From Planctomycetota bacterium (lineage in GTDB: Bacteria; Planctomycetota; Planctomycetia; Gemmatales; Gemmataceae), in NCBI GenBank assembly GCA_003671255.1, contig QWPF01000005.1, forward strand, positions 8,770 through 65,950: DNA of 57,181 bases, read 5' to 3'. A program made the position numbers and the translations under genes. The notes under the pieces were generated by a model. The model worked only from the letters and a program-made list of their open reading frames with translations. It did no database searches and had not been told where the DNA came from. Numbering within the stretch: position 1 is the stretch's first letter; every line of letters begins with the position of its first letter. This document shows, piece by piece, positions 33,115-57,181 of this stretch.

Positions 33115-33355
33115 GTTTGTTTACCAACTTTTAATGTTACTACGCCCAAATTGTTAAACTGTTCCACTACAAGCGATCCTGATAGCCTTGATAAGATTTT
33201 TCTTCAATACGAGTTTATACCTTTCTCAGTAAAAAACTGCCCGACCTACTCTCAGCATTTACCCATAAATACCAAATTTGACAATTTATCATGTACTTAA
33301 GCAATTTTCTCACATAACCTCGAATTTCTGTTCATTTCATGCAATACTACCTCTT

Positions 33356-34762
33356 ATGGAAATCGAAGAATTTACTGCACTTGTCCATATTACTCAAAAA
33401 CTTGGCCTTATTTCTCCTTTTGTTGCCGAAGAAGTGCTCGCACATACCCGAATAAGTAACAGCAAGTTTATTGATCCAAAAATTTTAACTGAACATAACC
33501 ATTTGACTGATTGGCAGATTAGTAAGATTGTAGCAGGTGATGGCACCATGCTTTTATTTAACGGATATCACCTTCTTTTTCCGATTGGGCCAGGAAAATT
33601 GGGGCGAACTTACAAAGCCAGGAAAATTGATACCGGAGAACTTGTTGCGTTAAAAGTCCTCAGAAAAAGACACGCCAATAACAATGTTGAAATACTTAAA
33701 TTTTTACGCCAGGGCGAAATACTCAAAGATATTAACCACCCCAACATTGTTAAAACTTTAGATTTATTTCCAGGCACAAAAAACATACCACCCTACCTAT
33801 CTTTAGAATGGATGAAAGGCGGGTCAGTTTATGACTGGCTTGAAATAAAAACTTTTCTTAGTTGCCCCGAAGCTTGTCTTATTATGGAAGAACTAAGCAA
33901 AGGTTTTTTATTCTTACAAAAGATGGGGATATCACACGGGAATTTCTCAGGGGCAAAAGTACTGCTGGACAATCCTTCCCACCCTAAAATCAACAATTTT
34001 CGTTTTGGATCAATTTTTGACCCGCAAACAGGGCAGATTAATAACCAGAATTCGTTGTCCTTTGATTATGCGGGTTTAGCAAGGCATTCAGGAGAATCTT
34101 CCGGCCCTAGTCAATCAGATATTTTTTTTGCAGGGTGTCTTTTTTATCACCTTCTTACAGGAAAATCTCTCCTCCCAGGTTCTTATCAAAAAAGAAAAGA
34201 AATGTATAACAAGAATGAATTTAAATTTATTTTCAACACAGAGTTCGAAAAAACACTCCCCTCAGAAACATTGCCTATTATTAAAAACATGATTTCAATC
34301 GACCCAAAATCACGCTACTCCGACTTTCTTCAAGTTCAAATTGCAATTCAATCCATCAGAAAAAAAATTCAAGCGGAGTATGGCGTAAATCCATCAGAAA
34401 ACGGTTCGACTATTTTTTTGGTGATTCGTAATGATAAAAAAAGGCAACTGATCAAGGCTTACATGCAAAACAGGGGGTTTCGAATTTTGCAAGCAAACAA
34501 TCTTGAACAAGCCCTTACTGTTTACAACCGGGAACATTTCAAACACCTTATAATCGAATTGGATAGTTATCTTTCCATTAAAGAAACTTTTTCAAAAATG
34601 ATAATTGAATCAGAACTGTGCAGACGCTTTCTTCATACTATTTTTCTAGTGGGTAAAAAGAAACCACTGCACATCCCTGCAAGGAATGGCAACACTTTCA
34701 TTGAAACACCAATCGATTTTTCATTAGTTATGGAAAAAATCATGGCTCATGAAAAATCATGA
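33356..34762 (+). CDS. Pseudokinase fused to a receiver-like domain
   Basis: About 468 residues from ATG 33356 (the frame is open from 33278). The N-terminal region (ITQKLGLISPF..LTEHNHLTDWQISKIVAGDG..LLFNGYHLL) is the helical module typical of planctomycete Hanks kinases. The N-lobe keeps GPGKLGRTYKA and the ATP-site Lys (VALKVL, residue 100). The catalytic loop HRD..KPxN is HGNFSGAK (H194, with Asn in place of the catalytic Asp), and DFG is NFRFG. So it should lack phosphotransfer. Residues from about 350 (IFLVIRNDKKRQLIKAYMQNRGFRILQA..) resemble a response-regulator receiver, also degenerate in its acidic cluster. Inferred: a signalling scaffold. It overlaps the convergent uracil-DNA glycosylase gene by 6 bases. 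Confidence 0.75.
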   Translation: MEIEEFTALVHITQKLGLISPFVAEEVLAHTRISNSKFIDPKILTEHNHLTDWQISKIVAGDGTMLLFNGYHLLFPIGPGKLGRTYKARKIDTGELVALKVLRKRHANNNVEILKFLRQGEILKDINHPNIVKTLDLFPGTKNIPPYLSLEWMKGGSVYDWLEIKTFLSCPEACLIMEELSKGFLFLQKMGISHGNFSGAKVLLDNPSHPKINNFRFGSIFDPQTGQINNQNSLSFDYAGLARHSGESSGPSQSDIFFAGCLFYHLLTGKSLLPGSYQKRKEMYNKNEFKFIFNTEFEKTLPSETLPIIKNMISIDPKSRYSDFLQVQIAIQSIRKKIQAEYGVNPSENGSTIFLVIRNDKKRQLIKAYMQNRGFRILQANNLEQALTVYNREHFKHLIIELDSYLSIKETFSKMIIESELCRRFLHTIFLVGKKKPLHIPARNGNTFIETPIDFSLVMEKIMAHEKS

Positions 34763-46613: not shown

Positions 46614-48737
46614 ATGGCAACAGGCTTCAACAAGATAGACATGGCAAAAACATATGAGCCAGCTAACACTCTTTATTCAAGAACTTTCATAGCTTTATTG
46701 GTGGCTCAGTTTCTTGCAGCTTTTAATGATCAAGCAATTCATGCATCAGCAATGTTTTTTGCAATTAACAAATCGACTTTAAACGAGGCGCAGGCAATTT
46801 CCCTGATGCCCATACTTTTTTATGCGCCTTGGGCTATTTTTTGCACCTTGGCAGGCTACCTTGCAGATCGCTACAGCAAGCAAAGCTCTTTGATTTTTTG
46901 GAAAATCGCTGAGGTTCTCATTACCGCAATTGCGCTACTTGGTTTCTGGCTAGGTACTCAGGATTATGATTCTGGACCATGGATAGTGCTTTCAACCGTA
47001 TTTCTTATGGGTATGCATAGTGCTTTTTTTGTACCTGCAAAATATGGAATCATGCCTGAAATCCTAAAATCGCACATGCTTTCCAAAGGCAACGGGCTGC
47101 TTGAATCACTTTCGTTTCTTGCGGTAATCATGGGGACCGTTTTTGGTGGAGTTTTATCCTACCATTATAAAGGACAGGAATATTGGATTGGGATCATCTT
47201 GTGCATACTTGCAATGATTGGGGCTATCGCAAGTTTTTGGATTGAAAAAATTCCTGCTGCAAACCCGAGCAGAAAGTTTCCTCCCTACCTCTACCAACCC
47301 GTTTACGCCAATCTTAAAGAAATGTTTCGTTCAAGGCCTCTAGCTATAGCTGTAATTGGTATCGCTTTTTTCACCTTCATTGTTGCATTTAGCAGAGCCA
47401 CTATTTACATGCATGGGGAATCACAATTGCCACGCTGGACTGAAGAAGAAACTAGTGTAATTGTTGGCATGGTTGCACTTGGGATTGGATTTGGCAGCCC
47501 ATTAGTTGGATACCTATCAGGCGGAAAAATAGAAATGGGCCTAATTCCCATTGGAATTACCGGGATGATCATTGGGTTGATAGGTGAAGCCCTGCTTCTA
47601 GACCATCTTAACTTTCTAATTGCTTTCATTATTACCACAGGCTTTTTTACAGGATTTTATGTAGTTCCACTTTTCACCCTGCTGCAAGATCGCGCCCCAA
47701 AATCAAGCAAAGGGGATGTCATAGCCACAAGCAATCTCATCAATGTCACTGGGGCAATTCTTGCATCTTTTTTATTCTTTGTGATTGTAAAGGTGGCACA
47801 TTTGTCTGGTGTTTGCCCAGAGATCCATCTAACCAAAATAACTGAGGGCAAACTTGAGTCCATCCAACTCGACCATGGTAGACCGATCAGTTACGGGCTT
47901 AGCTTTACCAATGCTGATGGTAACAAGACGGAAACATCTTTTAAAACCTCTCCAAAAACTGCCATCGACAACTTTTCCGAAGATGTGGTTATTGGTGCTG
48001 TAATCGTTGAAAAATCTTATCGGCTTGGTGGAGTGGAACACCGAAGATTGTATGAACAAAACGAAAGCCAAACACCAATGTTCGACAATCATTTTCTACC
48101 CAGATACCTTTTTCTTGTTGCGGCTTTTTTTACATTAGCCACCCTTGTTATTATAAGAATCCGCATGCCTGATCTTTTCTTGAGAACCATCCTATGGGGT
48201 TTCTTCTTTTCAAAATACAGTTTAAGAGCCCATGGTTTACACAATTTAAAAAGCCATGGCCCAGTCTTGATTGTTCATGAAGGAAACAGCCTTGAAGATA
48301 CCTATTTGATTCTTTCCGCAATTGACCGAACGCCAAGAAATCTTTTCAATGCAAAGCTCGACGCTGAAAACATCCCATCCTTTATCAATCGTTTGGCAAA
48401 AAAACACAGTCTGGCATGGTTGAATTCCAATGAATGCACCCCAGAGGAACTAAACCTGATTATTGCAAGAATCCGCAAAAACATTGGCAAACAGCATGCA
48501 ATATCACTGTCCTTGAATGGGCCTTGGATTCCTGGCATACTCGATTTGATCAACGAATTGAAAATCCCGGTGGTCCCTGTATTTATCTCACGGGCCCCGA
48601 ATCCAACAACCAAGGCAAGCAACATTGTCTACGTAAATTTTGGTAAAGAAATTAATTCAACAGTGGATCTGGAATCGTTGGCAATAGCCTGCAGGGAAAT
48701 TAAAGCCCCGGTTAACGGAGAGACTCCAGCGGTTTAA
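46614..48737 (+). CDS. MFS (LplT-like) transporter fused to a degenerate acyltransferase domain
   Basis: About 707 residues. The N-terminal about 420 residues are an MFS transporter of the LplT lysophospholipid type, with AAFNDQAIHASAMFF, LAGYLADRYSKQSSLIFWK, MGMHSAFFVPAKYGIMPEIL and FVPLFTLLQDRAPKSSKGDVIA-like segments. A polar insertion follows (about 420-500), then another membrane segment and a C-terminal domain resembling PlsC acyltransferases (GPVLIVHEGNSLEDTYLIL..GILDLINELKIPVVPVFIS). The catalytic NHxSxxD box reads EGNSLED, with Gly where the His should be. Inferred role: phospholipid transport across the inner membrane with a non-catalytic acyl-binding tail. It overlaps the convergent permease gene by 26 bases. 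Confidence 0.78.
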   Translation: MATGFNKIDMAKTYEPANTLYSRTFIALLVAQFLAAFNDQAIHASAMFFAINKSTLNEAQAISLMPILFYAPWAIFCTLAGYLADRYSKQSSLIFWKIAEVLITAIALLGFWLGTQDYDSGPWIVLSTVFLMGMHSAFFVPAKYGIMPEILKSHMLSKGNGLLESLSFLAVIMGTVFGGVLSYHYKGQEYWIGIILCILAMIGAIASFWIEKIPAANPSRKFPPYLYQPVYANLKEMFRSRPLAIAVIGIAFFTFIVAFSRATIYMHGESQLPRWTEEETSVIVGMVALGIGFGSPLVGYLSGGKIEMGLIPIGITGMIIGLIGEALLLDHLNFLIAFIITTGFFTGFYVVPLFTLLQDRAPKSSKGDVIATSNLINVTGAILASFLFFVIVKVAHLSGVCPEIHLTKITEGKLESIQLDHGRPISYGLSFTNADGNKTETSFKTSPKTAIDNFSEDVVIGAVIVEKSYRLGGVEHRRLYEQNESQTPMFDNHFLPRYLFLVAAFFTLATLVIIRIRMPDLFLRTILWGFFFSKYSLRAHGLHNLKSHGPVLIVHEGNSLEDTYLILSAIDRTPRNLFNAKLDAENIPSFINRLAKKHSLAWLNSNECTPEELNLIIARIRKNIGKQHAISLSLNGPWIPGILDLINELKIPVVPVFISRAPNPTTKASNIVYVNFGKEINSTVDLESLAIACREIKAPVNGETPAV

Positions 48738-50055
48738 TTCTCATTGCGGAAACTGCAGGCAAAAACCCGCCTACCATTCCCATCGCTACCGCAAAAAGTA
48801 TTCCACTAAAAATCAGCTTCATATCTACGGTAAGCCTGAGGAGAATGTTTTTACCACCACCAGCGCCACTGCTCATGATGCTACTTGCAGAAAATCCATC
48901 AGCAAAACTTCCAACGATACATCCCAAAACGCCACCGAAAAACGAGAGAAGAATGGCTTCAAGAAAAAAAGAAACGAGTATTTGCCAGGGAGCAAAACCA
49001 ACAATCCTTAGCACGCCAATATCCTTGCTTCGTTGACTAATCGCAGCAAACATCGTGTTCATAATTCCAAAAACGCCACCAATTGCAACGACTGCAGCAA
49101 CAAATAATATCGCAACAAGAAATTGTTTATTGGTGTTGTTCAATTTGTCGTAGTAATCTGTTTCAACAAATGCCTGCAAAGCCGCCTTCTTAAAATTTTT
49201 GACAATGTCCGTTGCAGTGGCATATGCAGCTTCTTTGCTATCAGTTTTAATTACAAGCGTAGTGTAAGTAACCTTGCCAAACCTTTCAGCAACAGTTTTC
49301 CACTTGGCCCAAATTTCAGAATCAAAAGTAGAACCACCTGAATCCATGATGCCTGCTACAACCCAATACTTATCTCCCATGTTAAAAACATCACCAACCT
49401 CCAGACTGGGCTTCATGTAATCTGGGCCAATTTCCTTGGCAATTCCTTGACCTAAAACAGCTTCTGTAGCATTAACTTTTCTGGGTTCCTTACCAGGTTC
49501 TGAAACAGTAACTTCCCTAACCCCACCGCCAGTATCCCCTGTGGAAAACCAGTCTCCAGACTTCAAAACCAGATGATGAACTTTTCCGGATCTTGCAGGA
49601 TCCAGAATCCCCCGGACCTGAATAAATCTCCTGCGCCTATCGCCTTTACGAGCGTGCAAGGGAATAGGTTGATTAACAATCACATAAGTTTCCCAACTGG
49701 TAAGGGGTTTCCCCAATTCATCACGGCTCACACCAGGATTAAATTCAATTTCACTAACATCGCTATAGCCCAAGTTGCTGAAGATTTCATCGGTGGCCCC
49801 ATCAGAAAGCACAATGATATTTTCAGGGTGCCCGCTACTTTCGGTCAATTTGTACATTCCGTTAACAAAAGCAAGCATCACAATTAGAACGCCAATCACC
49901 ATGGTGAAAGCAAGAGCTGTCATAAGAGAAATGGGCCAACGAACAATAAGATTTCGAATGCTATAATTGATGGGAACCTTACCAACCAAAGCGAGCAAAA
50001 TTGTAAAACCAACAATGGAAACAAGGGAAGTCGCAAGTATGGAAAAAAGACTCAT
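48712..50055 (-). CDS. ABC permease, MacB/FtsX type
   Basis: 447 residues with the FtsX/MacB layout: an N-terminal helix, a large periplasmic domain (residues about 70-310, including DEIFSNLGYSD and FDSEIWAKWKTVAERFGKVTYTTLVIKTD), and three C-terminal membrane helices with IMNTMFAAISQRSKDIGVLRIVGFAPWQIL, the coupling segment for the ATPase. It is the last gene of the efflux operon, 17 bases after the sister permease. With that permease it likely makes a heterodimer. The substrate (drug, lipid or peptide) is not known. Confidence 0.88.
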   Translation of the reverse strand: MSLFSILATSLVSIVGFTILLALVGKVPINYSIRNLIVRWPISLMTALAFTMVIGVLIVMLAFVNGMYKLTESSGHPENIIVLSDGATDEIFSNLGYSDVSEIEFNPGVSRDELGKPLTSWETYVIVNQPIPLHARKGDRRRRFIQVRGILDPARSGKVHHLVLKSGDWFSTGDTGGGVREVTVSEPGKEPRKVNATEAVLGQGIAKEIGPDYMKPSLEVGDVFNMGDKYWVVAGIMDSGGSTFDSEIWAKWKTVAERFGKVTYTTLVIKTDSKEAAYATATDIVKNFKKAALQAFVETDYYDKLNNTNKQFLVAILFVAAVVAIGGVFGIMNTMFAAISQRSKDIGVLRIVGFAPWQILVSFFLEAILLSFFGGVLGCIVGSFADGFSASSIMSSGAGGGKNILLRLTVDMKLIFSGILFAVAMGMVGGFLPAVSAMRIKPLESLR

Positions 50056-50072
50056 ATAAAGGCTCCGATAGC

Positions 50073-51443
50073 TTAAGAGATTCTAGCAAACACTTCAGAA
50101 ACCTTTACCCTGCATGCCGAAAGGGAAGGAAGTAAACTGCCCCCAAGAGCAGTGCTGATTCCAATTGCAGGCCCCCACCAGATAGCATCAATGGGAATCA
50201 TGAAAATAGGAAAGAATGCGATAGGAAACTTAATGCCTCCCGCCACATTATTTATAAAAACCGTAGTTGCAACAGAACTAAAAAGGCCACTAAATCCCCC
50301 AACCATAACCGCTTCACCAAGCACAAGAAAAAGAATCTGCATGGGCGTAAACCCAATGACTTTCATGACAGCGATTTCTTTTCTTCGCTCACGCACACTA
50401 ATGCTGATTGCAACAGCAATAATAAGTGCCATGGTTGCCAGAATAAAAGGCGCCAAAATCCATCGGAGTCCCCAAAGAAGATCTCGATAAGCATCAAGGA
50501 AAGTAGATATCCCCGATGAAGCAGTCTCCACTTTCACCGCAGGGCTTGTAAAAGAAGGAGAGTCAGTAATCTGGCTTTCAACTTTTTGAAAAACATCCTT
50601 GTCCGGAACCCTGATCCAAACAAGGTTCAAGTTTCGATTAGTCATAGGGTGTTTCGAATTTGGATTTTTCCTGTTATAGTCATCCATAGAATCGTTAAGG
50701 TAATCACGATTTAAAATGGCACTTTGGTTATAACGGCCTTCTGGAAATGAACCAATGATTTCAACTTCAAGATCGATGCCTTTGTAATTAAAGCTTGTAA
50801 GCTTGATGCGCTCGCCGACTTTTTTATTGATCGCCTGCAATCGTTCAGTGCCTACGATAATTTTGCGCTTATCCTTGACCATTTCCTCGCAAAGTTTATT
50901 GAGTTGATCTAATTGCGAGGTGCTATATTCTTCCATGCCGTCCATCATCTTGGTCATCTTCATAGGCTCCATGCTGAAGAAGAAGATGATGTTATCGCGG
51001 GTTTTTTTCTCAGGATCAATGGTCGCACCATAAAACTGCCAGGTCATCGCATCAACACTTTTGTCAATCTTATAATCCCCCTCTTTGCCCGGCGCGCCCT
51101 CTGAAAGGCTCGCTTCATATGCATAAGGCATCTGACTGGGGATCTGCCATTTCTCAGTAATTATCGCCTTGAAATCCTTGGCCTTTTCGGAAGTGACCAA
51201 GTTTAAAAACCAAAGCACAGTCCAGACCAATGTGACAACAAACACCAAAACAATCGAAGCAATTGCAGTAAGACTGGTACGAATAATATTACGCCTAAGA
51301 TTTAAAAACATAAGACGAAAGTAAAACAGATAGCTATTTGCAAATACAATGATTGCAAGGAAAGCAATCATACCAAGAACCAACGCACCCAATTGCAACG
51401 GGCTATCAAGAAATTCTAAAAGATACTTTTCGACATTGTTCAT
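50073..51443 (-). CDS. ABC permease, MacB/FtsX type, sister subunit
   Basis: 456 residues with an extra N-terminal membrane helix, then a helix (NIIRTSLTAIASIVLVFVVTLVWTVLWFLN), a periplasmic domain (about 90-330) and three terminal helices with VRERRKEIAVMKVIGFTPMQILFLVLGEAV, the conserved coupling motif. The organisation matches the downstream permease but the sequence is clearly different, suggesting ancient duplication and a heterodimeric transporter. The ATPase gene ends 11 bases upstream. Confidence 0.88.
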   Translation of the reverse strand: MNNVEKYLLEFLDSPLQLGALVLGMIAFLAIIVFANSYLFYFRLMFLNLRRNIIRTSLTAIASIVLVFVVTLVWTVLWFLNLVTSEKAKDFKAIITEKWQIPSQMPYAYEASLSEGAPGKEGDYKIDKSVDAMTWQFYGATIDPEKKTRDNIIFFFSMEPMKMTKMMDGMEEYSTSQLDQLNKLCEEMVKDKRKIIVGTERLQAINKKVGERIKLTSFNYKGIDLEVEIIGSFPEGRYNQSAILNRDYLNDSMDDYNRKNPNSKHPMTNRNLNLVWIRVPDKDVFQKVESQITDSPSFTSPAVKVETASSGISTFLDAYRDLLWGLRWILAPFILATMALIIAVAISISVRERRKEIAVMKVIGFTPMQILFLVLGEAVMVGGFSGLFSSVATTVFINNVAGGIKFPIAFFPIFMIPIDAIWWGPAIGISTALGGSLLPSLSACRVKVSEVFARIS

Positions 51444-51454
51444 GAATCTAATCC

Positions 51455-52177
51455 CTAAATACCAGCGTTGCCGGTGACATAAGAAAAGTTTCTGGAATCC
51501 TTGACGAGCTTGCCTTTTTCAAGTTGCAATACACGCTGTGCACGAGCAGCAGACCTTGGATCATGAGTAACCATAATGATGGTTTTCCCCAAAGTTTTCT
51601 GAAGAATCCCCATTAAGTCAAGGATCTCATCTGCAGATTTTGAATCCAAATCCCCAGTAGGTTCATCCGCAACAATCAATTCGGGATCGGTCACTATCGC
51701 CCGAGCGATACCAACACGCTGTTGTTGCCCTCCAGAAAGTTGACCCGGTATATGATTGATGCGTGAAGACAACCCAACAAGATCAAGAACATTCATAACC
51801 TGGGCTTTTCGCTGAGCCCTAGTCATAGGCAAAAGAAGCAATGGCAGTTCAACATTCTCGTATGCAGTTAAAACCGGTAAGAGGTGGTAGAACTGAAAAA
51901 CAAAGCCCACATGCCTGGTTCGCCACGAGGCAAGCATTGATTCACTCATCTTACTAATAAGATTTTTCCCTACGGTAACAGTGCCACTGGTAGGGGTATC
52001 AAGACCAGCAATGATATTAAGAAGAGTTGTTTTACCAGAACCACTAGGGCCCATAAGAGCCAAGAATTCCCCGGATTCGACCTCGAGAGTCAACTCTTCA
52101 AGGACCTCAATTTTTTCACTGCCTCTGCTAAAGCTTTTGGTGAGATTTTCAACTCGAACAACAATATTTTCAGACAT
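51455..52177 (-). CDS. ABC transporter ATP-binding protein, MacB/LolD type
   Basis: About 240 residues with complete ABC ATPase motifs: Walker [20 protein letters not shown]-loop [22 protein letters not shown] (a segment typical of LolD/MacB ATPases), signature [16 protein letters not shown], Walker [13 protein letters not shown] and H-loop [16 protein letters not shown] 52177 (MSENIVVRV) has AAGGA about 5 nt upstream. It powers the two FtsX-type permeases downstream. Confidence 0.93.
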
Positions 52178-52198
52178 AATCATCCTTTTTAAGATTGC

Positions 52199-53446
52199 TT
52201 AGTTGGAAGATTGATCTTTCATAAAAGAAACAATCACACCCATATCGGGCTTTAAATAAACACCCTCTTCTTCGGGCGCAACTTTAATTTTAACCCGAAC
52301 AGGAATGGCACCTTTACCGCGATCAGCGATAGGCATTAATCTAGAAATCGTACCTTCGTAGCCTTTAGGATGGGCCTTTAAGAATGGTGCATAATTTTGA
52401 AAAGCTTCGGGCATAACCAGGCATTTTTGCCCCTTAAAAACTGAAGCTACATCCCGTTCTTGGATGGAAAGATCAACTTCAAGATCTGTGAGATCTGCCA
52501 TTTCACAAAGGGATGCGGAAATATTAAAAGCAGCAGGATTGATAATATTTCCTTCCTCGGATTTTTTTGTCAGAATCACGCCCGATACAGGAGCAACTAT
52601 AACGCAATTATTAAGCCTCCATTGAGCCTTCGCTAAATCAGCAACCGCTTGATCAACCTCAGCTTCTGCCGCTTTGAGTTTCTCTTCTCTTGGCCCCTTG
52701 ACCATTAAATCATAAGCGGATTTCAACTTGCTGCACTTTCGTTCAACCCCTTCAAAACTAAATGAAGCGACATCCATTTCGCGCTGAGAAAGAGAAGCAG
52801 ACCCTGTGAGCCTGCGATTTCTAACCAAGTCTGATCGTAGTTGCTCAAGGTTTGAAAGGCTTTCAAGATACTCCTGTTTCGACTGCTCGATTTCTTCAGG
52901 CCGATTCCCATTTTTGATTTCCAACTTTCTTTGGGTTGCAGCTTGCAACACAGCTTTAGCTTTATCAAAATCGGCCTTGTAATCAACGGATTCAAGTACA
53001 GCCAAAATATCGCCTTTTTTTACTCTTTTCCCTTCTTCGACATAAAGCTTTTCAATCATCCCGGGAACTTTCGGACTGACTTGAATCTGATGCATGGGGA
53101 TGATATACCCTTTGGCTTCAAGAACAATATTTTCTTTTCCTTGAACAGGGGGCTGCGAAGATTTTTCAGCAACAGTTTTGACCGTATCTGTTCCCGTCGA
53201 TTTGCTTGATTGACTGGAAAACTTTTGCTGGCCAGAATCTGCTCCAGTGGGAGTCATTTTATAACTCCTCCAAGCCATCAATCCTGCTACACCCATCATG
53301 ATGACGCAAAGGCCCCATGCAAAAAGGGTAGATTTAGGCATCGATTGAGATTCTGCAACAGAATTAATTTTGAGCGATTTAACCCGTTCTTCCAAACTAG
53401 CATTATTATTTTTTGGAACCGATTGGGAAGTATTAAGAATGTTCAT
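52199..53446 (-). CDS. Periplasmic adaptor (HlyD/MacA-like membrane fusion protein)
   Basis: 415 residues. One membrane segment lies near residue 45 (FAWGLCVIMMGVAGLMAW). A lipoyl-like half (KGYIIPMHQIQVSPKVPGMIEKLYVEEGKRVKKGDILAVLESVDY) is followed by a long coiled-coil hairpin (about residues 160-270) and a second lipoyl half with VIVAPVSGVILTKKSEEGN. The beta-barrel and C-terminal part include IPVRVKIKVAPEEEGVYLKPDMGVIVSF. It links the inner-membrane ABC complex to an outer-membrane channel, which is not encoded in this window. The ATG overlaps the tetR stop by 4 bases (ATGA), so translation is probably coupled to the regulator. Confidence 0.9.
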   Translation of the reverse strand: MNILNTSQSVPKNNNASLEERVKSLKINSVAESQSMPKSTLFAWGLCVIMMGVAGLMAWRSYKMTPTGADSGQQKFSSQSSKSTGTDTVKTVAEKSSQPPVQGKENIVLEAKGYIIPMHQIQVSPKVPGMIEKLYVEEGKRVKKGDILAVLESVDYKADFDKAKAVLQAATQRKLEIKNGNRPEEIEQSKQEYLESLSNLEQLRSDLVRNRRLTGSASLSQREMDVASFSFEGVERKCSKLKSAYDLMVKGPREEKLKAAEAEVDQAVADLAKAQWRLNNCVIVAPVSGVILTKKSEEGNIINPAAFNISASLCEMADLTDLEVDLSIQERDVASVFKGQKCLVMPEAFQNYAPFLKAHPKGYEGTISRLMPIADRGKGAIPVRVKIKVAPEEEGVYLKPDMGVIVSFMKDQSSN

Positions 53447-54117
53447 CGAGGAACTCCTTCAGATCTTTTCTTTTTGGCAACTTGTTTATTAAGACCAAAC
53501 TTAGACTTCATATAAGTAAATAAAATGTTTAAAACCAAATCGCACATGATTTTAGGATCAAAGGCATCGGGATCAGCGGCCCTTTGCATGGAAAGCCCAT
53601 GCAAAACAGCCTCGATCAAAGTCGCAAGGTTGCGCAAATCCAAGGAATTGGTAACGGGAGCAAACTCTTGGATTAAATCTCCCGTTATTTTAATGCGCCA
53701 TTCTTCATACAAAGCACTGAGCCTTAAGCGAAAATCGGCTCTATGTGATATTTGAGAAAGAAAAGTGTATTGGAGAGCATGAAAACCATCGCCCTCCACG
53801 GGTCTTGCAAGCACATTTTCAATAATTCGAGAAATGCGCTCCCAACCTTCTAGCTGATCAGCAGAAGGCTTTCCAGTTTTTTTATCCTGAACTTGAAAGT
53901 CGAGTTGCATCAAGAAAAGGAAGCGGTCAAAAACAGCCAGCAAAATATCTTCCTTCGCAGGAAAGTAATAAGTAAGCTGACCCCGGCTCATGCGCGCTTT
54001 CTTTTCAATTTCAGAAAGCGAAAAGTTCTGCAATCCTTGCTGCGCAATCACACAAACAGCAGCATCGACAATCTGCTCCTTGCGAATGAATGAAATATCA
54101 ATACGACTTTGATTCAT
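53443..54117 (-). CDS. TetR family transcriptional regulator
   Basis: 224 residues with an N-terminal helix-turn-helix (KEQIVDAAVCVIAQQGLQNFSLSEIEKKARMSRGQLTYYFPAKEDILLAVFDRF), a classic TetR pattern, followed by a helical ligand domain with no recognised specificity. It is the first gene of the efflux operon and its stop overlaps the adaptor start. A promoter and a 7+7 palindrome lie just upstream (54140-54185), so it likely represses its own operon and is released by a ligand related to the exported substrate. Confidence 0.9.
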   Translation of the reverse strand: MNQSRIDISFIRKEQIVDAAVCVIAQQGLQNFSLSEIEKKARMSRGQLTYYFPAKEDILLAVFDRFLFLMQLDFQVQDKKTGKPSADQLEGWERISRIIENVLARPVEGDGFHALQYTFLSQISHRADFRLRLSALYEEWRIKITGDLIQEFAPVTNSLDLRNLATLIEAVLHGLSMQRAADPDAFDPKIMCDLVLNILFTYMKSKFGLNKQVAKKKRSEGVPR

Positions 54118-54217: not shown

Positions 54218-56392
54218 TTAGGTACAACGGATTACAACCACGGTTGCGTTATCCGTTGCTCCTTCAATATTTGCAAGATTAACCAGCCTTCTTGCTGCCA
54301 TTTGCGCAGATTGCGCCTCATTGGCAAGCATGGTTTTAAGATCATTATTTGAAATATGATTGGTTAAACCATCTGAACAAACAAACACCCAATCCCCGGG
54401 AAGAACTCGGGCATGATAAATCCCAACTTCTACATCAGGCTGACCGCCAATTGCCTGTTGAAGTTCATTTTTCCGGGGGTGATCCTCTGCCTCTTCAGCA
54501 GTAATGCTACCTAACTCAACAAGTCGATTTACCAAAGTTTGATCTCTGGTAACTTGGATTAACTCACCTTGGGATAGATGGTAAACCCTACTATCCCCGA
54601 CATGGCCAACGACCAGATTTTTCCCATCAATGTATGCAGCTTCTGCAGTACAACCCATGCCCCGCCTTTTGCTACCAGGGGCCCGGGAAGCAGTAAAGAT
54701 TTGCCGATTCGCTTCTTTAAGCGCTGCTTTAAACAACTGCTTGCAAGCCTCAACATCAAGTTCAGCAGGGGCATGGCTTTCGCCTTTAGGCGGAGGGCTT
54801 GCAGCGTCATTAGTAAAGGCTGAACCTCCCGCAAATTGAGAGAACATTTTATGCAAGGTAAGGCTTTGCCTGAGGATCTGCATAGTCATGGCTGCAGCAA
54901 TTTCACCCGCCTCGTAACCGCCCATTCCATCTGCTAAAAACACCAATGCTGTATCTGTTAGATCATCCTGACGAGATTCAGTGGCATGCATGAGAGCAAA
55001 AGCATCTTCATTGCCTGTACGAACCATACCCGTGGTTGTCCAACTAGCAATTTCAAGCCTGCCCCTCTCCAAACTTCGGCCTACTGAGGCCAGCGTTGCG
55101 ATGAGTTCTGTAAACCCGCTTTTATCATCTCTTCCAGCTTCATCAGTGGGAAATCTGGCATGAATTTCGGTACGGAATGTTTTGGAAATCAACCGACCAA
55201 AGGCTGGGTGAATATCAGGGAATCGAGGTATAAAAGGCTTGGGCACGCCGGGTTTCTCGAAATCATTTTCACTCAATTCGCGGTGCAGTATTTCCAGAGA
55301 ATAAATCAGCGCACCAAAGCTATAAAGGGAAGGCCTAGGCGAAGTACAACCTTTGCCCGCCAACAATTCCGGAGGCGTGTATAAAGTGCCGCGCACTGGG
55401 CTGCCCGGTGGAAAAGGCAAAGGAAGAATTTCGAGCACATCTTTAAGTTTTAATTTACCTTCGCTGGTCAATACAACACTTTCGGGCCTTACAAACTCGA
55501 GAAAACCACCGACCTTATGCAGCGATGCCAAAATTCGAGCAAGGTCTTGCAAGTAAGAAAACCTTATGCCGGCGTTTTGGCTTTCATCGTCCCAGATCTC
55601 CCACAAATCTTTCCCAGTTGGAACTTCTACAACAAGATAATTAGTCGCATTTTCAGTGCCGCCAAATAGAACTTTGGGCAAGCCGTTTGTTTCTGCTGCA
55701 TCCAAGGTGGATCTCAACCAACCCAAATTAGGCCACATCAACAACTTTGGCATTTCTCGCGTTGCTTCAATTCCACTTGTTCCAGAAAGCAAAGCATCAT
55801 CAAAGCTTGGTAAAAAATCATCAGACTCATCTGATTCCGGAGGTGCAGCACTAGGAACCTCGTTTTGATCACCCACATCGGCTTGGGAATAAATCAAAAC
55901 ATCGACGGGACCGCCCGGGGCCGTGATATCCACTCCCGCTTGAATTTTTATACCCGCAAATTCACGAAGAATTTTAGCTGCCTTGTATCTGCCTGCAACC
56001 ACTATTTCGGAACCAACGACTGCACCAGAATCATCTGCAGTTAATCCATCGCCTGCAAGTTCCTGCTCTGTGAAATAATAACCGCAATCCTGACATGAAT
56101 TATGATCCTGCAACCTTTGAGAACCACACACCTTGCAAAGAATTATTCTTGCTTCAACCTTAGAATAATTTTGAGCAACTGGTTCTTCGGATGAAATGAA
56201 TGGTGGGGAATCACTTAGTTCACTTTGGGAAATGTTGACTGCAGAAACTTCTTCAGCCACCTCGACAGGCAAAGCCATGGGAATAAAGCCATCTGTCAAC
56301 TGATCTGCATTATCAACGGGCATTGCAAGAGGAACATCCCCATTCGAATCAGTTTGGGTTTCATGATCATTAGAAGAAGGTTCAGTATGCAT
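54218..56392 (-). CDS. PP2C phosphatase fused to zinc ribbon and pseudokinase
   Basis: About 724 residues from ATG 56392, which has GAGGTG 9 nt upstream. A disordered acidic N-terminus is followed by a zinc ribbon (CKVCGSQ..CQDCGYYF, residues about 86-105). Next is a kinase-like domain (about 135-430): the catalytic loop HRD is LEF (GFLEFVRPESVVL), DFG is replaced by DVL, and no VAIK lysine is evident, so it is a pseudokinase. The C-terminal PP2C domain (from about 450) is intact, with the metal-binding Asp/Glu in RTGNEDAF, FLADGMGGYEAGEIAA, GCTAEAAYIDGKNLVVGHVGDSRVYHL, VCSDGLTNHI and TDNATVVVIR. Inferred: Ser/Thr phosphatase whose pseudokinase and zinc ribbon direct targeting. It lies 49 bases behind the kinase gene. 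Confidence 0.85.
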   Translation of the reverse strand: MHTEPSSNDHETQTDSNGDVPLAMPVDNADQLTDGFIPMALPVEVAEEVSAVNISQSELSDSPPFISSEEPVAQNYSKVEARIILCKVCGSQRLQDHNSCQDCGYYFTEQELAGDGLTADDSGAVVGSEIVVAGRYKAAKILREFAGIKIQAGVDITAPGGPVDVLIYSQADVGDQNEVPSAAPPESDESDDFLPSFDDALLSGTSGIEATREMPKLLMWPNLGWLRSTLDAAETNGLPKVLFGGTENATNYLVVEVPTGKDLWEIWDDESQNAGIRFSYLQDLARILASLHKVGGFLEFVRPESVVLTSEGKLKLKDVLEILPLPFPPGSPVRGTLYTPPELLAGKGCTSPRPSLYSFGALIYSLEILHRELSENDFEKPGVPKPFIPRFPDIHPAFGRLISKTFRTEIHARFPTDEAGRDDKSGFTELIATLASVGRSLERGRLEIASWTTTGMVRTGNEDAFALMHATESRQDDLTDTALVFLADGMGGYEAGEIAAAMTMQILRQSLTLHKMFSQFAGGSAFTNDAASPPPKGESHAPAELDVEACKQLFKAALKEANRQIFTASRAPGSKRRGMGCTAEAAYIDGKNLVVGHVGDSRVYHLSQGELIQVTRDQTLVNRLVELGSITAEEAEDHPRKNELQQAIGGQPDVEVGIYHARVLPGDWVFVCSDGLTNHISNNDLKTMLANEAQSAQMAARRLVNLANIEGATDNATVVVIRCT

Positions 56393-56441
56393 CGAAAAAT
56401 CACCTCTAAAAGCATTAAGCAAATAATATTAAACCATAGGC

Positions 56442-57181
56442 TTATCGAAGCCTGTTACCACAATGAATACAGCATCGACTACCCATTCTGTTGTTTTTAC
56501 CACAGTAATAACAAGGCGGTGTGGAGTCGGTTAAGGGTTCAGCACATTTGCCACAAAAAGGCTGACGAACTTGATTCATAGAAGCACATTTCGAACAAGG
56601 CACTTCCTTCGTTACTTGCTTTTTTTCCAGATCTGCCTTGATTTCCCTAGCGCTATAATAACGTTCATTAGGATCTTCGCTTAAATTGACTTTAATCATT
56701 TCGTAAAGCCATTGCGATTTGGCAGGAATAGGGTTGGCGGTATCTTTCAGCATCAGATCGATTTCATGAACTGTAATGGAACCTTCGGGAACCTTACCCG
56801 TTACCAATTGGTAAAGGGTGCACGCAAGGGCAAAAAGGTCGCTTCGTGGTTCAGGTTTACCTGCAATTTGCTCCAAGGGTGCATACCCTTCGGTATAAAC
56901 TTTAGTCTTTGCAGCATGCCTGTCTTTTTGATTTTTGCCTAAGTCTCGGGCTGTACCAAAGTCAATCATCTTGATGGATTTTTTATCTTCGAGAAGCATA
57001 ACATTTTCAGGTTTCAAATCACGATGAACCAAAGGTGGCACTTGTGAGTGCATATGCTGAAGCACATCGCAAATACTGCGGCCCCACTCGATAACACTTT
57101 CAATCGGGAAAGGAGTATGGCCATTAGATTCAAGGATCTTCATTAAATCCTTACCCTTGATAAACTCAAGCACAAGATAGG
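56442..57181 (-). CDS. Serine/threonine protein kinase, C-terminal part (start outside window)
   Basis: The reading frame is open to the right edge, so the N-terminal lobe is missing. Seen residues begin with the hinge (YLVLEFIKGKDLMKIL). The catalytic loop HRDLKPENVML, the MIDFGTAR activation segment, and YTEGYAPLEQIAGKPEPRSDLFALACTLYQLVTG are intact, so this is an active-type kinase. The last about 55 residues contain two zinc ribbons with eight cysteines in C..C pairs (CSKCASM..FCGKCAE, CYYCGKN..CCIHCGNRLR). It is directly upstream of the PP2C gene, consistent with a kinase/phosphatase signalling pair. Confidence 0.9.
   Translation of the reverse strand, partial: YLVLEFIKGKDLMKILESNGHTPFPIESVIEWGRSICDVLQHMHSQVPPLVHRDLKPENVMLLEDKKSIKMIDFGTARDLGKNQKDRHAAKTKVYTEGYAPLEQIAGKPEPRSDLFALACTLYQLVTGKVPEGSITVHEIDLMLKDTANPIPAKSQWLYEMIKVNLSEDPNERYYSAREIKADLEKKQVTKEVPCSKCASMNQVRQPFCGKCAEPLTDSTPPCYYCGKNNRMGSRCCIHCGNRLR

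Follow-up and report, generated by a model that had tools for sequence, protein, structure and literature searches.

Near one end of a 57,181-nucleotide stretch of planctomycete DNA (Planctomycetota bacterium, contig QWPF01000005.1, positions 8,770 to 65,950; hereafter the window) lies a gene in which a PP2C-type protein phosphatase is fused to a zinc ribbon and a pseudokinase, directly downstream of a gene encoding a Hanks-type Ser/Thr kinase that also bears zinc ribbons. We give a probability of about one half to the reading that the ribbon and the pseudokinase address the phosphatase to a complex on which the kinase docks, the two enzymes being parts of a single Ser/Thr phosphorylation switch. 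Several observations lead to this reading. The kinase and fusion genes lie together in 38 of the 41 genomes that carry the kinase, and all 41 encode the fusion. The pseudokinase is dead in relatives and the PP2C domain intact, both with a ratio of nonsynonymous to synonymous substitution rates (dN/dS) of about 0.03. The ribbon and kinase-like parts of the fusion are collinear with those of the neighbouring kinase, whose second ribbon is, of the ribbons compared, the one closest to the fusion ribbon. The kinase co-occurs with a vWA protein, and the wider gene set includes an ArnA-like FHA protein, the FHA and MIDAS residues of these two proteins being intact. Finally, only 49 nucleotides separate the two genes in the window, and the ribbon is missing in five of the seven fusion genomes that lack a kinase match.

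Domain architecture of the phosphatase fusion

The features of the two genes are as follows (pLDDT, predicted local distance difference test).

54218-56392, minus strand: PP2C fusion gene, ATG start, 724 amino acids
54221-55072, minus strand: PP2C domain, amino acids 441-724, with all 13 checked catalytic or metal residues present
55073-56011, minus strand: pseudokinase domain, about amino acids 128-440, from AlphaFold model, profile comparison and alignment
55739-55870, minus strand: disordered acidic linker in the N-lobe of the pseudokinase, amino acids 175-218, pLDDT under 50
56084-56137, minus strand: zinc ribbon of the fusion, Cys 86/89/100/103 (C-x2-C-x10-C-x2-C), from the Cys pattern
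56442-57179, minus strand: C-terminal 245 amino acids of the Hanks-type Ser/Thr kinase, truncated at the contig end
56460-56597, minus strand: C-terminal double zinc ribbon of the kinase, from the cysteine pattern
57018-57026, minus strand: HRD codons of the active kinase, conserved in 28 of 28 orthologues

Judged by its residues and predicted fold, the PP2C domain is intact and of an ordinary Stp1-like type. The 13 residues are kept in every one of 40 aligned sequences, a set that includes the window's own and underlies all residue counts for the fusion given here, and the predicted model fits the Streptococcus agalactiae phosphatase 2pk0 with Z 31.7 and a root-mean-square deviation (rmsd) of 2.0 over 242 residues. 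The fusion scores 206.6 bits against the Stp1/IreP equivalog model NF033484, below its curated cut-off of 230. Similarity to the PRK14559 serine/threonine phosphatase family (NF011149), for which the best stretch lies within the PP2C domain, reaches 92.8 bits as against a curated cut-off of 374, and the same family was also matched in 6 of 14 control genomes. The description of this protein in the initial annotation, as a combination of a zinc ribbon, a kinase-like domain and a complete PP2C, is upheld.

The kinase-fold domain is a pseudokinase, catalytically dead across relatives by the evidence of its alignment. The beta3 lysine is absent from all 40 sequences, mostly replaced by V, Y or L; the HRD His is likewise found in none and the HRD Asp in one; and neither the first nor the third column of the glycine loop contains Gly. 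The Asp of the DFG motif is retained in 35 sequences and its Gly in six, so that the earlier view of a domain lacking both HRD and DFG is correct for HRD, and for the F and mostly the G of DFG, and mostly fails for the Asp. Residues with a structural role are invariant, namely the Pro-Glu of the APE motif and the subdomain XI Arg (both 40/40). Pfam detected no kinase fold in the window protein at E values up to 1, but recognised one in 31 of 39 members of the fusion family at E values up to 0.1; profile-profile comparison with the neighbouring kinase gave E 4.6e-30 over 305 columns spanning ribbon and kinase. Since PP2C matches filled the fold-search list for the whole model, the pseudokinase was predicted and searched alone. 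The isolated model (pLDDT 81.7) matches PknB with Z 20.9 and rmsd 4.3 over 248 residues, and the top Foldseek match is PknG.

The pseudokinase is under purifying selection, as far as can be told from two within-genus pairs in which dN/dS was 0.03-0.04 for the pseudokinase and 0.03 for PP2C; these values are rough because dS is high (1.2-1.8 and 0.8-0.9, respectively), and two further pairs of the four compared were saturated. The disordered acidic insert is located between beta3 and the C-helix and in 22 of the 40 sequences contains a short DDFLPSFD-like motif, identified by pattern search, which is a possible binding motif.

The neighbouring kinase, its ribbons and the conservation of the pair

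The kinase fragment in the window lacks its N-terminus because the contig (C137) stops at the window end (57181). Another contig of the same genome, C123, shares a 360-base terminal overlap with this end at 97.5% identity, inside the kinase gene, and carries the start of the gene including the glycine loop and the VAIK lysine. There are nine differing positions in the overlap, and close to its end the gene copy on C123 is interrupted by a stop; this is a strain variant or an assembly error, the assembly breaking or mixing strains at this point. In view of these mismatches and the stop, an intact orthologue of 491 amino acids from genome G001 was taken as the reference. It comprises an N-terminal ribbon, ribbons 2 and 3, the kinase domain and a double ribbon. 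Its residues K200, HRD298-300, K302, N305 and DFG319-321, together with 20 ribbon cysteines that include those of the terminal double ribbon, are invariant in 28 of 28 orthologues. With every catalytic motif in place it appears to be an active-type Hanks kinase, ending in two zinc ribbons as originally proposed, although the Pfam double-ribbon model matches the window fragment under its cut-off. In PADLOC, models for the kinases of phage-defence sets were matched by the kinase (PD-T4-6, E 1.2e-52), and one such model by the fusion (E 0.0009). These matches were taken to reflect general kinase similarity and not a role in defence.

Each of the four Cys columns of the fusion ribbon holds Cys in 34 of the 40 sequences. 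For ribbon comparison, 158 proteins containing at least two CxxC motifs were collected from the fetched DNA and scored with a profile of the fusion ribbon. The highest score outside the fusions was obtained by ribbon 2 of the kinase, at up to 31.8 bits and ranging down to 3.8, and the best unclassified protein and the best ribbon-FHA protein reached 13.3 and 11.0 bits; the terminal ribbons of the kinase gave a few bits. The ribbons of an 890-residue protein described below were hardly compared, since the CxxC filter kept just two of those proteins. The ribbons of the two enzymes are therefore related, as had been suggested, but the counterpart of the fusion ribbon is kinase ribbon 2, which lies outside the window, and not the terminal pair. 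Over its ribbon and kinase-like domain, the fusion runs collinear with this second ribbon plus the kinase domain of the neighbour.

Conservation of the pair was followed through 102 genomes of the order, probably Gemmatales, by profile searches in which at most 15 candidates per genome were scored for the kinase and at most 20 for the fusion. The kinase profile found one locus in each of 41 genomes, and the fusion profile matched in 47. The sole kinase-bearing genome without a fusion-profile match, G480, has a diverged fusion beside its kinase, so that all 41 carry the fusion. In 36 of them the two genes are on one contig and on the same strand with the kinase upstream (the kinase of G465 reads in two frames), and G480 and G031, where the kinase is cut by a contig end, bring the number to 38. 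The two genes are separated in G019 and G483, which are sister genomes, and the G467 pair falls at contig ends. From elsewhere in the phylum 391 genomes were drawn (20 of which are listed, all as 'same class'), and with at most five candidates scored per genome none yielded a fusion past E 1e-25; such a search may miss diverged fusions, as G480 was missed at the same threshold. The putative switch would thus be confined, as far as searched, to one planctomycete order. The initial annotation had named as signs against the pairing a separation of the genes in relatives, ribbons from unrelated families, and an intact catalytic loop in homologues of the pseudokinase; the genes prove to be together in most kinase-bearing genomes, the ribbons related and the loop degenerate.

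Among 48 genomes tallied for the fusion ribbon and the kinase, 39 have both, five neither, two the kinase only and one the ribbon only, one being unreadable. The seven fusion genomes without a kinase match comprise five in which the fusion is ribbonless, G024, which bears a ribbon, and G466, which is the unreadable one; in these last two a contig end interrupts the fusion. This distribution is suggestive of a loss of the ribbon that tracks loss of the kinase.

The 49-nucleotide gap between the fusion and kinase genes contains no terminator-like and no same-strand promoter-like site, in a scan that yielded no more sites than shuffled sequence. A TTG start of the fusion at 56422 is unlikely, as an in-frame TGA stands ahead of the ATG in five close relatives. 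Rfam gave nothing at gathering thresholds within the window. Downstream of the phosphatase gene, the stretch 48712-54117 (minus strand) encodes a TetR regulator, an HlyD-type fusion protein and an FtsX/MacB-like permease according to Pfam, between which an ABC ATPase and a further permease were recognised by eye; within the genus the TetR and HlyD genes come after the fusion, as they do in G034 and also in G027 and G480. One other feature of the window belongs to the same enzyme class as the kinase:

33278-34762, plus strand: further Hanks-type kinase gene, 494 amino acids, from Pfam

Wider gene set and possible roles of the fusion

The pair was initially viewed as a possible self-contained switch. 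Comparison of genomes did not support this view: the two genes are part of a bigger conserved group that includes an FHA reader and a vWA protein. Upstream of the kinase are genes for a membrane FHA protein, the 890-residue ribbon protein, a ribbon-FHA protein and the vWA protein, and in part of the genomes (e.g. G001, G034, G023 and G468) the whole set forms one run. The ribbon-FHA gene follows the vWA gene in all 26 genomes read there (in G042 by a short match only), four of the 28 vWA genomes being outside this reading. In the ribbon-FHA protein, seven of the eight residues of the phosphothreonine site are kept in 14 of 14 sequences and the eighth in 13, and the nearest PDB match is ArnA (E 1.3e-19). 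The metal ion-dependent adhesion site (MIDAS) of the vWA protein is intact in 19 of 19 sequences, and Thr408, Ser425 and Thr428 in the tail of this protein are likewise the same in all 19. Among 44 genomes of the order, 26 have both the vWA protein and the kinase, two have one and two the other alone, and 14 have neither, counts that are inflated by shared ancestry. In the membrane FHA protein, all 22 sequences have Glu or Asp in place of the Ser of the phosphothreonine site. This protein (L106 6471-7388 and relatives), encoded before the kinase, also matches YscD-type domains, which it resembles in its degenerate site, and it amounts to a dead reader beside a dead kinase. The 890-residue protein (L106 3781-6456 and relatives) is conserved at a position between the two FHA genes and is without a clear Pfam family; a shorter relative precedes the vWA gene in six of the loci fetched (L098, L117-L120, L133).

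Within the switch envisaged here, the kinase would be the 'on' enzyme and the PP2C fusion the 'off' enzyme. The kinase would phosphorylate both its own activation loop and the vWA protein, the phosphothreonine would be read by the ribbon-FHA protein, and PP2C would reset the phosphorylation state. The ribbon and pseudokinase would perform no chemistry, serving as an address tag that keeps the phosphatase on the complex where the kinase docks. Docking would probably involve ribbon contacts with the vWA protein, like those of the ArnA ribbon on ArnB, such that kinase, phosphatase and reader are all ribbon-docked on the vWA protein and the pseudokinase holds PP2C there. We infer this chain from docking to dephosphorylation, with ArnA-ArnB as the structural precedent. 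A more specific proposal, which we regard as distinctly doubtful, is that the set is a bacterial relative of the Arn system, in which a kinase, a phosphatase and a reader with related ribbons share a vWA platform and the kinase and fusion compete as on a see-saw. The fusion, as a dead version of the kinase architecture joined to PP2C, would then take the kinase's seat at a shared docking site.

Several findings weigh against the address-tag reading. The fusion ribbon is under weaker constraint than the domains (dN/dS about 0.2, 37 codons), and its generic CxxC spacing is common to all ribbons. G027 and G480 have the kinase and a ribbonless fusion, and the apparent tracking of kinase by ribbon comes down to about two ribbon and three kinase changes, on a quick tree in which long branches meet. 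The vWA-FHA unit is away from the kinase-PP2C unit in G009, G010, G019, G026, G032, G037, G038, G040 and G041, and in G018 and G042 the contigs end before the arrangement can be read. By whole-profile comparison the nearest PDB chain to the vWA protein is BatB, ahead of ArnB, and in the archaeal system the ArnA ribbon by itself binds ArnB, in a contact that the authors call rather weak (PMC12852372). In G012, G015 and G021, where the search gave no orthologue of the kinase, the fusion directly adjoins the ribbon-FHA gene, so that its partner could be the FHA protein. The pseudokinase profile, lastly, scored the best other kinase, one of the same genome, at 54.4 bits and the best neighbour kinase at 43.9. 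Other kinases thus score as high or higher, and a recent origin of the pseudokinase by duplication of its neighbour is unsupported; this comparison was restricted to plus-strand frames, which covered 9 of the 18 other-kinase loci of the genome, and the neighbour kinase of G027 was additionally included in it labelled as another kinase.

Rather than holding the kinase, the pseudokinase might be a built-in sensor in which binding of a ligand, or of a nucleotide in some unusual manner, switches PP2C on or off. The retention of the DFG Asp and of the whole fold would suit such a role, as would the five fusion genomes without a kinase orthologue, and, according to a review of bacterial pseudokinases, DLHK pseudokinases are modelled as binding ATP without the beta3 lysine (PMC12599244). 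Nevertheless, replacement of that lysine throughout and the loss of Gly from two glycine-loop columns speak against nucleotide binding of this kind, and a sensor leaves the tight linkage to the kinase unexplained; we consider it somewhat unlikely. It is unlikely, too, that the target of PP2C is one of the FHA and vWA proteins and not the kinase, with the pseudokinase docking the FHA protein much as the MviN pseudokinase recruits FhaA (PMC12599244). The three genomes with the fusion beside the ribbon-FHA gene favour this explanation, one of them (G012) having a distant kinase 3.4 kb upstream, but in most genomes with both genes the direct neighbour of the fusion is the kinase.

It is very improbable that the enzyme is a generalist housekeeping phosphatase that is in the operon by chance, with the pseudokinase as an inert remnant. 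The ordinary character of the PP2C domain would allow it. However, the pseudokinase is under purifying selection and retains its fold and scaffold residues in all 40 sequences, adjacency is maintained across the order, and generalist phosphatases could be supplied by two further PP2C loci of the same genome.

Bacterial Ser/Thr kinases and PP2Cs are usually deemed promiscuous, and how the phosphatases find their targets is largely open. A dead kinase and a kinase-related ribbon on a phosphatase make this question directly testable. Bacterial pseudokinases are described as a class with few known functions (PMC12599244). The fusion offers one of them a clear candidate role and a set of partners.

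Comparison with known systems

Phosphatases of the Stp1, PstP and tPphA type are single-domain or tail-anchored enzymes. The fusion is alike in its catalytic domain and residues, to which it adds a 440-residue N-terminal extension. The cyanobacterial high-light phosphatase HltA was dropped as a comparator, since it is a different, group II PP2C (PMC9430166).

In gene content the planctomycete set resembles the archaeal Arn switch as well as the TerY-P triad, with some features of either one differing or unconfirmed. The TerY-P triad, which is the nearest known gene set, consists of a TerY-like vWA protein, a PP2C and a kinase with a C-terminal zinc ribbon (PMC11090510), and actinobacteria are likewise described as having a zinc-ribbon kinase accompanied by PP2C and vWA (PMC7159879). 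As in the triad, genes for a ribbon-ended kinase and a PP2C are kept together here, and a vWA gene is conserved along with them, on the same stretch in part of the genomes. Unlike that of the triad, the PP2C here is joined to a ribbon and a pseudokinase. An FHA reader, a membrane protein with a degenerate FHA domain and a large ribbon protein are further members of the set, and nine genomes have the vWA gene at a separate locus. A TerF-like vWA model matched 14 of 19 vWA members (best E 1.6e-5), the one member for which a score is given falling under the cut-off.

In the Arn system of Sulfolobus, ArnA and ArnB act with ArnC and ArnD and with PP2A (PMC12852372, PMC6509490). PMC12852372 reports an ArnA-ArnB cocrystal in which the ArnA ribbon docks on ArnB, phosphorylation of ArnB by ArnC that adds FHA binding, and PP2A as the phosphatase, and it already mentions bacterial proteins of ArnB-like architecture. 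The planctomycete set likewise encodes a ribbon-FHA protein beside a vWA protein, together with a Ser/Thr kinase and a phosphatase, but the phosphatase is a PP2C with a pseudokinase and not PP2A. An ArnB_C domain is weakly matched in 4 of 19 vWA proteins (best E 0.0018), and a profile of the vWA C-terminal region recovered neither ArnB nor anything else relevant from the PDB. Kinship of the vWA protein to ArnB beyond the vWA domain is putative at most, and it was not accepted as an ArnB orthologue, BatB being nearest in the PDB.

PknG with GarA or OdhI is comparable in having a rubredoxin-like domain next to its catalytic core and an FHA partner, and differs as an active kinase with TPR and without a fused PP2C (PMC8546545). 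The 2025 review of bacterial pseudokinases recognises seven families, MviN among them, which have similarly lost catalytic motifs and kept the fold; its text uses the word 'phosphatase' once, among the references, and 'Planctomycet' nowhere (PMC12599244). No bacterial PP2C-pseudokinase fusion was found among the papers listed by searches of the open-licence PubMed Central literature. It is the fusion of a pseudokinase to PP2C, the pair of FHA proteins and the split loci that set the planctomycete set apart from the known kinds.

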